From positions 248,001-312,000 of the forward strand of contig QOCQ01000003.1 of the NCBI GenBank assembly GCA_003574685.1: a stretch of DNA of 64,000 nt, written 5' to 3'. Shown here piece by piece: positions 21,160 to 25,615 of this stretch. A model generated the notes under the pieces. The model had not been told where the DNA came from. It made no database searches and saw only the letters and a program-made list of their open reading frames with translations. Position numbers and translations under genes: made by a program. Each line of letters opens with the position of its first letter. The stretch's first letter is position 1. The DNA comes from Rhodospirillaceae bacterium SYSU D60007. Its GTDB lineage: Bacteria > Pseudomonadota > Alphaproteobacteria > Reyranellales > Reyranellaceae.

Positions 21160-23331
21160 TCAGATGTGGTGCAGGATGCGTACCGCACCTTCGCCACCGC
21201 CCGTGCTGAAGGCCACTACCCGCTCACCGACCCTCTGAAACACCAGATCAAACCGCACGTTGCCCAGGGCAAGGCCCTGCAGTGCGATGCGATCTATGCC
21301 AAGCGGCAGCGCCGGACGCTCGATATGGATCTCGCGGTTCCAGCCGTCGATCCGCAACCCCAGGCACGCTTGCAGGATCATGAACAGCGCACCTGATGAC
21401 CACGCCTGCGGCAGGCATGCGACGGGATAGGCAATCGGCGATTCCCCGGGCGCGCGCCGGAAGCCGCAGAACAGCTCCGGCAGCCGCATGTCGAATTCGA
21501 CAGCCGCTTCGAATGCCTCGCTCAGCAACTGCACCACCCTTCTGCGATGGCCATAGCGCGCCATGCCGGCAGCGCAGAGTCCCGTATCGTGCGGCCATAC
21601 AGAACCATTGTGGTACGACATGGGATTAAATCGTGCTTCGCCGCGCGCGAGCGTGCGGATGCCCCATCCGGAATTGAAGCTCGCCGACAGCAAATGATCC
21701 GCGATCAACGCCGCGCGCCGGCGTGCCGGCAAGCCGACATACAGCAGGTGCCCGGCATTGGAGGCGCGTACCTGGCAAAGCTGCCCGCGTCCATCCATGG
21801 CCAGACCATAGAAGCCGAGGTCGGATATCCAGAAGTGCTCTTCCACGGCCTCGCGCATCGTGTGCGCCCGCGCCAGCCAGCGGGCGGCAGCCTCCAGGTC
21901 GTGGCGCTGGTGGGCCAGGGCCGCCATGGCGCGGAGCGCGCCATAGACATAGCCTTGCACTTCCACGAGCGCGATCGGTCCTTCAGGCGTGCTGCCGTCC
22001 GCATGGAAAATCGAATCCTGGCTATCCTTCCAGCCCTGGTTGGCCAGTCCGCTCTCCGCACCCCGCGCGTAGTCGAGGAAGCCATGAGGGTTGGAGGCGC
22101 TCTGCTCCTCGATCCAGCCCATTGCCGCTTCCAGGCTCGGCCAGAGCTCCTCGATGAAATCGAGATCGGCAGTGCGCGCCCCGAAGGCTCCAGCAAGAAT
22201 GACGAACAGCGGCGTGGTATCGACGCCGCCATAGTACTTCCGGAACGGCAACTCCCCCATGGCCGTCATCTCGCCCTTGCGGGTCTCGTGCATGATCTTG
22301 CCGGGCGCCGCATCCTGAAACCGGGAGGTCTCGTACGCCTGGTTTCGCGACAGGTAGGTCAGCACGCCACGTGCCAGCGTCGGATCCAGCCACAAGGTCT
22401 GAAGGGCGGTGACAATTGCATCCCGGCCGAAGGGCGTTGAGAACCAGGGGATGCCGGCGTACGGGTAAGGTCCGGTCGGCAGATCGGTGGTCAACAGCGC
22501 GAGGTCGGCGCGCGACTTGTCGATCCATTGATTGAAAAGCCGGCCTGAACTGTAGAGACGGGCCCCCCGCCGGCGTTGCCGGCGCATGCAGATCCGGGCC
22601 CGCGCCGCGGCAGCACGAAAGCGGCCGCGATCCGGCCGCGCCGCGAGATCCGGTCCCACTTCAATGTAGAGTTCGGCCGAGCCGTGGCGGGGCACGAACA
22701 GCGTAAAATCCGCGGTGTCGGCCGTCAGGCGCTGCGGGGTCAGCGAAAAGGCTACGGCAGACGAACGCACCAGCTCATCGAGGCCCTCGTAACGCAACAG
22801 GACCGCGTTCTGGCCCACCTGCGGTGGCACAAACTGGCCCCGCATCGGCCGGGATTCCCCCCTGACCTCGAACATGTCCCGGAAATCGGCGGCAAATCCA
22901 ATGGCGAGCGGAATCGTGGTGTCGAAATCGCTATAGTTGCTGAGGGTCAGCCGTTCATACAACCGCTCTTCCCACAGGAAGCGGGCCCGCTCGGCATGGA
23001 TAACGCCTTCCGGGATGGATTGTCCGCCAAGCGGCGGCAAGGGCCTGTTGGTGACGTGCGAGGTGAAAAAGACGTTGTCCTCGCTCATCGATGCGCCGAG
23101 CAGCGACGGCAACTGGCCGCCCAGCAGAAGATCGAAGCGCGACAACACGCGGGTGTCGTCGCGGAACATGCCGTCGCCCGTGCCCCGTATATTCCCGAAC
23201 GCATCATTCACGAGGAATGTATCGGCGTGCTTCAGCGCATAGTGCTGTGCCGCGCCGCGAGCGACCGGCGCGGTTTCGATCGGCGGCAAGGCTTCGCCGG
23301 CGGCGCTGGCCGGTTGGGAAGCCTGATCCAT
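21160..23331 (-). CDS. Amylo-alpha-1,6-glucosidase / glycogen debranching-like protein
   Basis: 723 residues from ATG 23331, 5 bp past the stop of the upstream glycosyltransferase. The N-terminal beta-rich domain has GDGMFRDDTRVLSRFDLLLGG, typical of the debranching N-terminal domain. The C-terminal (alpha/alpha)6 barrel has PWFSTPFGRDAIVTALQTLW near residue 295, then MSYHNGSVWPHDTGL with candidate catalytic acids. The family hydrolyses alpha-1,6-linked glucose branches or related glucosides. There is no signal peptide. The pairing with a family-4 glycosyltransferase recurs in alphaproteobacteria and suggests a role in alpha-glucan or glucosylglycerate-type metabolism, which remains inference. 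Confidence 0.88.
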   Translation of the reverse strand: MDQASQPASAAGEALPPIETAPVARGAAQHYALKHADTFLVNDAFGNIRGTGDGMFRDDTRVLSRFDLLLGGQLPSLLGASMSEDNVFFTSHVTNRPLPPLGGQSIPEGVIHAERARFLWEERLYERLTLSNYSDFDTTIPLAIGFAADFRDMFEVRGESRPMRGQFVPPQVGQNAVLLRYEGLDELVRSSAVAFSLTPQRLTADTADFTLFVPRHGSAELYIEVGPDLAARPDRGRFRAAAARARICMRRQRRRGARLYSSGRLFNQWIDKSRADLALLTTDLPTGPYPYAGIPWFSTPFGRDAIVTALQTLWLDPTLARGVLTYLSRNQAYETSRFQDAAPGKIMHETRKGEMTAMGELPFRKYYGGVDTTPLFVILAGAFGARTADLDFIEELWPSLEAAMGWIEEQSASNPHGFLDYARGAESGLANQGWKDSQDSIFHADGSTPEGPIALVEVQGYVYGALRAMAALAHQRHDLEAAARWLARAHTMREAVEEHFWISDLGFYGLAMDGRGQLCQVRASNAGHLLYVGLPARRRAALIADHLLSASFNSGWGIRTLARGEARFNPMSYHNGSVWPHDTGLCAAGMARYGHRRRVVQLLSEAFEAAVEFDMRLPELFCGFRRAPGESPIAYPVACLPQAWSSGALFMILQACLGLRIDGWNREIHIERPALPLGIDRIALQGLALGNVRFDLVFQRVGERVVAFSTGGGEGAVRILHHI

Positions 23332-24535: not shown

Positions 24536-25039
24536 CTAGACAGCCAGCACCATGCCTTGCTGGAAACCGGAAAAGCCGAAAGCCGTGTAGAAGCGTGCAA
24601 CTTCCGAATCAGGATCGAGAGCGCCTACCTCCACACGCGTGGCGCGCCGCTGGCGGGCCCACTCTACCACAGCGGCAAGCAGGCGCCGCCCGACGCGCCG
24701 GCCGCGGCAGTCCCCCCGAACCAGGAAATCGCGAATGGCGACAACTCGCTGCGGGGCGGCGCCTTCAAGGCCGGACGGAGACCGGGTCAGCAATACCGCC
24801 ATCGCCGCAAGGCCACCTTTCGTGGATGCAACGAGGATGGTCGCCTGACTGTCGCACAGGAGTGCTGCAACCTGCTCGCGCAGGCCGGATTCCGTGCCGC
24901 TATCCCCCTCGTTCACGGCGTCCATCTCCTCGAAAAGCGTGCAAAGCGCCTCATAATCGCGCACGGACGCTCCGCGAATCCGGATGTCCAGTGCGGCCGG
25001 CGGCCATGCTTCGATTGTACGTTCCGCGGAACTCAACAT
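24536..25039 (-). CDS. GNAT family N-acetyltransferase behind an attenuator
   Basis: 167 residues, start ATG 25039 with a strong gaggagg. One GNAT domain: IRIRGASVRDYEALCTLFEE at the N-terminus, VVAIRDFLVRGDCRGRRVGR with the acetyl-CoA loop (RGRRVGRRLL, about 118-127), and a C-terminal VARFYTAFGFSGFQQG. The substrate is unknown. Upstream on the same strand is a complete promoter, a 16-codon leader peptide rich in aromatic residues and a terminator hairpin (25091-25237). Expression therefore probably responds to charged aromatic or histidine tRNA levels, and the substrate may be related to those amino acids. Confidence 0.87.
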   Translation of the reverse strand: MLSSAERTIEAWPPAALDIRIRGASVRDYEALCTLFEEMDAVNEGDSGTESGLREQVAALLCDSQATILVASTKGGLAAMAVLLTRSPSGLEGAAPQRVVAIRDFLVRGDCRGRRVGRRLLAAVVEWARQRRATRVEVGALDPDSEVARFYTAFGFSGFQQGMVLAV

Positions 25040-25090
25040 CGGGTCCTCCTCGTGCGGCTTCCTGTCCTGCCGCGGGCCGGAGGCCCTTCA

Positions 25091-25124
25091 TCAAAACGAA
25101 AATGCCGCCGGTCTGCGGCGGCAT
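25091..25124 (-). terminator. Rho-independent terminator of the GNAT leader
   Basis: On the minus strand a perfect 8-bp stem (25124-25117 with 25109-25102, loop of 7) is followed directly by a T-rich tract interrupted by CG. It lies about 60 nt upstream of the GNAT start and downstream of the leader peptide stop. The 5' arm (GCCGCC) can instead pair with GGCGGC just after the leader stop codon at 25152-25147. That is the competing antiterminator expected of an attenuator. Confidence 0.8.
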
Positions 25125-25151
25125 CGTGTGGTCATGACCAGTCAGCGCCGC

Positions 25152-25202
25152 CTATGGGAGCGACGTAAAATACCAGCCGAAGTGGTGGCGGCGTCCGGTC
25201 AT
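25152..25202 (-). CDS. Putative attenuator leader peptide, 16 residues
   Basis: ATG at 25202, TAG at 25154-25152; product MTGRRHHFGWYFTSLP. The start codon lies 6 bp after the -10 hexamer, so the message would begin at or next to the A of ATG (leaderless), as reported for rhizobial trpL. The run HHFGWYF puts two His, two Phe, one Trp and one Tyr codon in seven positions. The codons for residues 4-6 (CGCCGCC, 25193-25187) can pair over 7 bp with GGCGGCG (25152-25146). A ribosome halted on the aromatic codons would cover that segment and free the second one for antitermination. Translation is predicted, not shown. Confidence 0.65.
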   Translation of the reverse strand: MTGRRHHFGWYFTSLP

Positions 25203-25208
25203 GGTCTT

Positions 25209-25237
25209 TGTATAGTGCTGCTGGTGCGGTCCGTCAA
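25209..25237 (-). promoter_or_regulatory. Sigma-70-type promoter of the leader-GNAT unit
   Basis: Minus strand: TTGACG at 25237-25232, a 17-bp spacer, and TATACA at 25214-25209. Each hexamer differs from consensus at only one position. The predicted start point is about 25202, coinciding with the leader ATG. No protein gene on this strand lies upstream that could use it other than the leader-GNAT unit. Confidence 0.75.
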
Positions 25238-25273
25238 TCGGAACCACAGACTCGGCATCACGTTTGGGTGGGC

Positions 25274-25615
25274 ATGCCCAACGCATCGGCAATGCGCGCA
25301 ACCATTGTCCGTATCTGGCGTGGCCGCACGCGGCCCGAACGAGCGGACGAATACGAGGCCTACAACTACGAGGTCGGCATCAAACCGCTGATCGAAAAGG
25401 CGCTGGGCGTCCAGACCTGGCGCGAGGACCGACCCGACTGCACCGAATTCGTCACTGTGTCTTATTGGGAGACCGTCGAGTCGATGGCGGTCTTTACGGG
25501 CGGCGACCCGACACAGATCCACCATCTGCCGCGCGATGCCGAGTTCCTGATCGAACTGCCGACCGCCGTGCAGATCCTCCGGATCCGCACGAGCCACGGC
25601 CGCACGCCGGTGTAA
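25274..25615 (+). CDS. Small dimeric alpha/beta-barrel-like protein (ABM-type)
   Basis: 113 residues from ATG 25274; ATG 25292 is a possible alternative. The sequence RATIVRIWRGRTRPERADEYEAYNYEVGIKPL followed by GVQTWREDRPD, TEFVTVSYWETVESMAVFTG and DAEFLIELPTAVQILRI has the spacing of antibiotic-biosynthesis-monooxygenase-like ferredoxin folds, in which a helix follows the first strand. Such proteins are cofactor-free monooxygenases, haem-degrading enzymes or plain sensors; no function can be assigned. Its promoter region overlaps that of the leftward leader-GNAT unit. It is convergent with the DapA-family gene, 8 bp apart. Confidence 0.7.
   Translation: MPNASAMRATIVRIWRGRTRPERADEYEAYNYEVGIKPLIEKALGVQTWREDRPDCTEFVTVSYWETVESMAVFTGGDPTQIHHLPRDAEFLIELPTAVQILRIRTSHGRTPV

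Follow-up and report, generated by a model that had tools for sequence, protein, structure and literature searches.

Leader-peptide attenuation is a classical form of control, known from trp, phe and his of E. coli and from trpE and ilvBN of Alphaproteobacteria. In S. meliloti, trpL is a leaderless leader frame of 14 amino acids, and its attenuator yields the small RNA rnTrpL (PMC10117765, PMC7298713). A leader has also been described before trpS of Caulobacter (PMC4117421), and the Rhodobacterales uORF attenuator uORFC-8-2, with tandem control codons, lies before cysS (PMC8632094). In Acholeplasma, uORFC-13-1 precedes aroF and carries an aromatic control codon with a terminator downstream (PMC8632094). 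MccE and RimL-type GNATs acetylate aminoacyl-nucleotide inhibitors of aminoacyl-tRNA synthetases (PMC4964394). We analysed a window of 64,000 nucleotides from Rhodospirillaceae bacterium SYSU D60007, for which a preliminary description had claimed that a GNAT gene is preceded by an attenuator with four pairing segments and aromatic control codons. Conservation now backs this claim, as do the alternative pairings in 39 leaders and the occurrence of the same architecture before tyrS, tyrA and DAHP synthase genes. We consider it highly probable that the leader is a ribosome-mediated transcription attenuator and that the GNAT is switched on when aromatic amino acids, tyrosine above all, are limiting or when tRNA-Tyr charging is blocked.

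The element lies on the minus strand. Its promoter consists of a -35 box, TTGACG (25232..25237), and a -10 box, TATACA (25209..25214), with a 17-nt spacer; TTGAC was invariant in 30 aligned relatives, and the -10 box and its distance to the ATG were kept in relatives. The leader ATG at 25202 is the 7th base past the -10 box (6 nt between); we therefore predict a leaderless transcript that starts at the A of the ATG. The leader ORF MTGRRHHFGWYFTSLP (25152..25202) has 16 codons followed by TAG at 25154-25152, and its control codons, Trp10-Tyr11-Phe12, occupy 25175-25167. The Phe codon used, TTT, is the minor one in this region (20 TTT vs 60 TTC). Segment 2, GGCGGCG (25146..25152), overlaps the stop codon and pairs with segment 3, the 5' arm of the terminator (25116..25125). 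Between them lies the palindrome TGGTCATGACCA (25129..25140), assigned by folding and co-variation to the inner stem of the antiterminator, and its GGTCAT is complementary to the start ATGACC. Segment 4 (25093..25110) comprises the 3' arm of the terminator (25110-25101) and a T-rich tract. The terminator, GATGCCGCCG-CAGAC-CGGCGGCATT (25125-25101), is a 10-bp hairpin followed by the T-rich tail TTCGTTTT. The promoter, the leaderless frame, the GGCGGCG at the stop codon and the terminator were thus all found where the preliminary description had placed them. The fold of the leader RNA beat 200 of 200 dinucleotide shuffles (z -3.9). In Rfam 15, no family reached its gathering score for the leader element, the best being RcsR1 on the leader strand (14.5 bits vs 60). 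The regulated gene, GNAT-A (24536..25039, minus strand, ATG at 25039), encodes a GNAT-family N-acetyltransferase of 167 aa according to Pfam, AlphaFold2 and Foldseek. A divergent ORF on the plus strand (25208-25615), whose start region overlaps the leader promoter region, encodes a predicted protein without a Pfam match.

The element was present in 37 of 37 genomes of the same family, Reyranellaceae, the source genome included, in a DNA search of that genome and 60 relatives (E 1e-122 to 3e-7), and an RNA model search found it in 70 of the 76 genomes of the order. The GNAT gene stood downstream of the leader wherever this was checked in the family, in the same direction and with approximately 100-115 nt between the leader stop and the gene; the same gene occurs in named records of Reyranella, Vineibacter terrae and Enhydrobacter aerosaccus ATCC 27094. 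In the relatives that were read, the frame has 16 codons (15 in one of the first 30 genomes and in two overall) and begins 6-7 nt past the -10 box. Codons 2-9 are variable, and Trp10, Tyr11, Phe12 and Thr13 (WYFT) are invariant in Reyranellaceae. The preliminary description had named Phe-Gly-Trp-Tyr-Phe as the stall codons and histidine or aromatic supply as the signal. Tyr11 and Phe12 are fixed, whereas Phe8 is not conserved; the aromatic part of the proposed signal was supported, and histidine was rejected because His6 and His7 vary. Within the family, Tyr is encoded by TAT or TAC and Leu15 by all four CTN codons; the constraint is therefore partly on the amino acid. The TTT of Phe12 and the ACG of Thr13 never change there, and the RNA may thus be constrained in part as well. 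Segments 2-4 are nearly uniform within Reyranellaceae, so that covariation there is weak; support for the pairings is provided by other families. In one genome, the leader RNA occurs twice at a distance of 1.1 kb (G070:C325:20847-20957 and 21960-22070), which suggests a tandem duplication of the leader and possibly of the GNAT.

The class was searched with the RNA model of the family and then with a broader model, and downstream genes were typed by Pfam. The same architecture, i.e., a TTGAC-type promoter, a leaderless 16-codon frame, a G+C-rich segment at the stop codon and a terminator, was found elsewhere. Such leaders precede genes for tyrosyl-tRNA synthetase (tyrS; MTEMMHITAVYFARLP, MIKTALTAAFYYATFR, MTRALIQSCVFYTSSP) and prephenate dehydrogenase (tyrA; MTTSPILSGLYYAPLP, MTTSLHHSGLYYAPLP, MNKAPVSTRSYYAPLI). 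Longer leaders precede class I and II DAHP synthase genes (MITVATSYFWYFS..., ...RFYDRWYIPAA), and those before class II genes contain several aromatic codons (also ...LYFARYFTRWYGPAA). Stand-alone S4-domain proteins follow leaders such as MIANATFRPWYFTLHT and MENTKIHINAYFTSSK, and one of these proteins also matches the TyrRS C-terminal domain. The same GNAT-A follows leaders in a second family (MIVPARATRWYFSATS, MTTAAALHRWYFSPTT), and GNAT-B, which belongs to another GNAT subfamily, follows leaders in a large family (MIKNAPIAATYFWLFL and others). Of 38 leaders with sixteen codons, 37 have Tyr at codon 11, and all 38 have an aromatic residue at both codon 11 and codon 12. None of 20,000 within-leader shuffles reached this pattern, a count in which leaders of the same family are related and the trials are thus not independent. 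In GNAT leaders of 15 and 17 codons as well, counting back from the stop puts Tyr at the sixth residue.

The presence of TATTTT in the RNA models favours Tyr-Phe; searches with proteins only were therefore run as a control for ascertainment. The GNAT-B protein search found orthologues in 14 of the 71 genomes of its family (E below 1e-20), and an aromatic leader stood before each of the 14. With the GNAT-A profile in 387 genomes, the leader was found before 7 of 7 close orthologues and before 0 of 5 distant relatives. GNAT leaders were also present in plasmid records of S. meliloti Ak57 (MIKNAPISSVYFWLFR), Sinorhizobium sp. K101 and Shinella sp. PSBB067 (MIKSTHIAATYFWLFR), and a more distant plasmid case is pCP157_04 of Paracoccus marcusii (MCMNAASIVNYYRRLN), in which the GNAT-B relative with its NYY leader adjoins pedF and a rhodanese-like gene. 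Together, the leaders indicate that tyrosine attenuation in Alphaproteobacteria is a wider set of one design, comprising tyrS, tyrA, DAHP synthase, S4-domain proteins and GNATs.

No such leader was found before the ordinary tyrS and tyrA genes of Reyranellaceae, including those of the source genome; therefore, the GNAT is the only member of the set seen in this organism. A genome of the same genus has an extra tyrS copy with its own attenuator (G003:C78:23288-24700; MIKTALTAAFYYATFR), whereas the ordinary tyrS of the family lacks one; the extra copy is perhaps an inducible, inhibitor-resistant TyrRS. The stand-alone S4-domain proteins are approximately 80-95 aa long, some match the TyrRS C-terminal domain, and Tyr-rich leaders lie upstream of them (MIHAANYYYWFISSHT..., MHSRAVFNYWYFTLLT); a role as a separate TyrRS-related regulator or component is possible.

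A MAFFT alignment of the region after the stop codon across families split the hairpin arms; therefore, pairings were examined in each sequence, and all folds are equilibrium predictions on short pieces. Pairing of segment 2 with the 5' arm of the terminator (2:3) was predicted in 39 of 39 leaders (mean fold z -2.2). In ribosome-free folds, segment 2 paired with the region upstream of the stop codon (1:2) in 38 of 39, and the terminator was wholly or mostly kept, again in 38 of 39. In the freed RNA of the window, GGCGGCG pairs with CGCCGCC and an inner UGGU/ACCA stem is added; the conserved palindrome is therefore accounted for by this inner stem of the antiterminator. The original segment 1, CGCCGCC in codons 4-6 (25187..25193; folding and alignment), is used in the source species to pair with segment 2 when no ribosome is on the RNA; it is present only in close relatives and is not conserved. 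The widespread pairings of segment 1 involve the start-codon region (ATGACC:GGTCAT and variants) and codons 13-15, where the conserved segment 1', ACGTCGCT (25159..25166; RNAalifold consensus and folding), pairs with GGCGGCG. The palindrome can also hide the start codon, as ATGACC/GGTCAT, ATGATC/GATCAT, ATGACA/TGTCAT or ATGACG/CGTCAT. The full six-base pairing with the start codon was present in 22 of 39 cognate combinations compared with 14.1 when leaders were swapped (p 0.0004). Comparison with relatives, which the preliminary description had proposed as a check, strengthened its claim: the aromatic codons are conserved, and the start-codon pairing co-varies across the leaders.

The geometry of the stalled ribosome was modelled with its 3' edge assumed at +14 to +16 nt from the first base of the P-site codon. 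In this footprint model, only codons 11, 12 and 13 in the A site cover segment 1 (nt 37-44) and leave segment 2 (nt 51-57) free, and the conserved aromatic codons fall in this range. With Trp10 in the A site, segment 1 is covered only partly; with codon 14 there, the ribosome starts to reach into segment 2, and at the stop codon it blocks that segment. The earlier proposal that stalling covers segment 1 and frees 2:3 agrees with the model for codons 11-13.

From the sequence anatomy, conservation, complementarity, geometry and gene context described above, we infer a transcription start, stalling, termination and induction that would proceed as follows. RNA polymerase would start at the A of the leader AUG, as judged from the promoter spacing. 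When charged tRNA-Tyr (and also tRNA-Trp and tRNA-Phe) is ample, the ribosome would reach the stop codon and cover segment 2, and the 3:4 terminator would form. When the leader is not translated, the start-codon region and codons 13-15 would pair with segment 2 (1:2), and 3:4 would again terminate transcription. When Tyr11 or Phe12 occupies the A site of a stalled ribosome, segment 1 would be covered and segment 2 free, such that 2:3 forms and transcription reads through into the GNAT gene. That is, the GNAT is very probably turned on when charged tyrosine (aromatic) tRNA runs short, and anything that blocks tRNA-Tyr charging should induce it as well. As read from the leader peptides, tyrosine would be the signal common to the whole set, with Tyr11 and Phe12 as the fixed codons; any aromatic shortage might act as an inducer, given Phe12 and Trp10. 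For the leaders before tyrS, tyrA and DAHP synthase genes, the gene that follows does serve the metabolism of tyrosine, the amino acid that would be sensed.

The same RNA switch could be operated by another signal. The erm, cml and tna leaders are of the arrest-peptide type, and many resistance enzymes are found among GNATs; an antibiotic or small molecule might thus stall the ribosome at WYFTSLP, and the GNAT would be an inducible resistance enzyme with no part for tRNA charging. The strong constancy of WYFT[SP]L[PT] in Reyranellaceae, with Thr13 always ACG, would suit such a peptide, as would the weak profile matches of the GNAT, which include AAC(3)-XI and streptothricin acetyltransferases. 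However, the NCBIfam resistance models were all far from their cut-offs for the GNAT. Across the leaders, moreover, only the two aromatic codons are fixed and the residues that follow them differ (TSLP, WLFR, ARLP, ATFR, TLHT, SATS), and the same leaders stand before tyrS, tyrA and DAHP synthase genes, which fits tyrosine charging. Because of these differing flanking residues and these downstream genes, we regard an arrest peptide as unlikely.

It is more improbable still that the 110-nt RNA is mainly a trans-acting small RNA or a small-protein gene, with the terminator as its 3' end and no switch. Promoter, leaderless frame and terminator do form a complete short transcription unit, and the attenuator-derived rnTrpL and peTrpL act in trans in S. 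meliloti (PMC10117765, PMC7298713). However, the element lies approximately 100-115 nt upstream of a co-directional GNAT throughout the family, two distinct GNAT subfamilies carry it, and the mutually exclusive 2:3 and 3:4 pairings are conserved, which would be purposeless in a constitutive small RNA. The leader RNA may have a role in trans in addition to the switch. The palindrome TGGTCATGACCA could also be read as the operator of a repressor, with the leader frame and hairpins incidental, since its 12 bp form a perfect palindrome that the family has strongly conserved. We give this reading almost no credence: the palindrome co-varies with the start-codon region and forms the inner stem of the antiterminator, a pattern of RNA complementarity. 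Attenuation in response to tyrosine charging is the preferred reading.

A second hairpin (25045-25090 and homologous sites) lies between the terminator and the gene and buries the GNAT Shine-Dalgarno sequence, GGAGG (25045..25049, minus strand), which is predicted to be paired. Its anti-Shine-Dalgarno arm is GGGCCTCC (25079..25086, minus strand). The Shine-Dalgarno sequence was predicted to be paired in nearly all leaders, with a mean unpaired probability of 0.16 compared with 0.40 when the upstream stretch was shuffled; burial reached p 0.1 or less in 25 of 38 leaders. The 5' arm of this hairpin, around GGGCCTCC, is complementary to the apex of the terminator. Cognate pairs of apex and arm beat reassigned ones overall and within GNAT-B, where 0 of 10,000 permutations were as good; within GNAT-A, where the sequences are too alike, p was 0.17. 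A chain is possible, and the complementarity suggests that the loop and segment 4, freed once 2:3 forms, open the Shine-Dalgarno sequence. A simple thermodynamic coupling of the Shine-Dalgarno sequence to the switch was unsupported in equilibrium folding (mean unpaired 0.20 with 2:3 forced vs 0.19 with 3:4 forced). We regard the second hairpin itself as real.

GNAT-A matches PF00583 (E 7.6e-13), its AlphaFold2 model has a normal GNAT fold (pLDDT 84.8) with GNATs as Foldseek matches, and its acetyl-CoA loop has a conserved R-x-R-R-V-G near residues 112-117. Its nearest matches are BH1408, PaiA, the polyamine acetyltransferase DpA and AAC(3)-XI; those of GNAT-B are thialysine/spermidine acetyltransferases and the plant NATA enzymes. 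Assignment of a substrate from structure was dropped, as the matches span many GNATs with differing substrates. For either GNAT, MccE was absent from the best 50 fold matches in Foldseek, and no MccE sequence match was found. Because this control is common to both GNAT subfamilies, it is plausible that the reaction is linked to tyrosine or to tRNA-Tyr charging. By analogy, it is plausible that the GNAT removes a tyrosine analogue, or a TyrRS inhibitor as MccE does for an AspRS inhibitor. It is possible that the control codons could reveal the GNAT substrate, as the preliminary description hinted.

On a broader and more tentative reading, which we think possible though doubtful as a whole, Alphaproteobacteria would have a tyrosine-charging regulon of leaderless attenuators, into which GNATs were recruited at least twice against an amino-acid analogue or TyrRS inhibitor; in a coupled second stage, the terminator apex would pair with the 5' arm of the hairpin that hides the Shine-Dalgarno sequence, such that one pairing chain gates both transcription and translation. 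If this is true, the switch would sense the damage (uncharged tRNA-Tyr), and the GNAT would remove its cause. An uncharacterised acetyltransferase tied to tyrosine or aromatic tRNA charging gains a concrete handle on its substrate, and the link spans a bacterial family and, with the second subfamily, rhizobia including S. meliloti.

In the open-access full texts that we searched, no leader peptide had been reported upstream of a GNAT gene. The tyrosine leader set (tyrS, tyrA, DAHP synthase, S4 and GNAT) was found neither in Rfam nor in the open-access full texts searched. The attenuation mechanism itself is known; a GNAT is an unexpected target for it, and a second stage is possible. S. meliloti trpL/rnTrpL is likewise alphaproteobacterial with a leaderless frame; however, it has Trp codons before trpE and no GNAT. 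uORFC-8-2 is likewise an alphaproteobacterial uORF attenuator with tandem control codons and lies before an aminoacyl-tRNA synthetase gene; it differs in concerning cysteine and cysS, and the elements described here match no Rfam family. uORFC-13-1 likewise places an aromatic control codon upstream of a DAHP synthase gene, with a terminator downstream, and differs in belonging to another phylum, in having an RBS, in using Phe only and in lacking a GNAT. The likeness to MccE, a GNAT with a functional link to an aminoacyl-tRNA synthetase, is a lead only; the inhibitors on which MccE acts are those of AspRS, and it carries an additional substrate domain at its N terminus. With the attenuators of amino-acid operons, the present element shares a short leader ORF with control codons, four pairing segments and the alternative of terminator and antiterminator; it differs from them in that its target is a GNAT instead of a biosynthetic operon, its Trp-Tyr-Phe is fixed, its frame is leaderless and the Shine-Dalgarno sequence of its target lies in a second hairpin.
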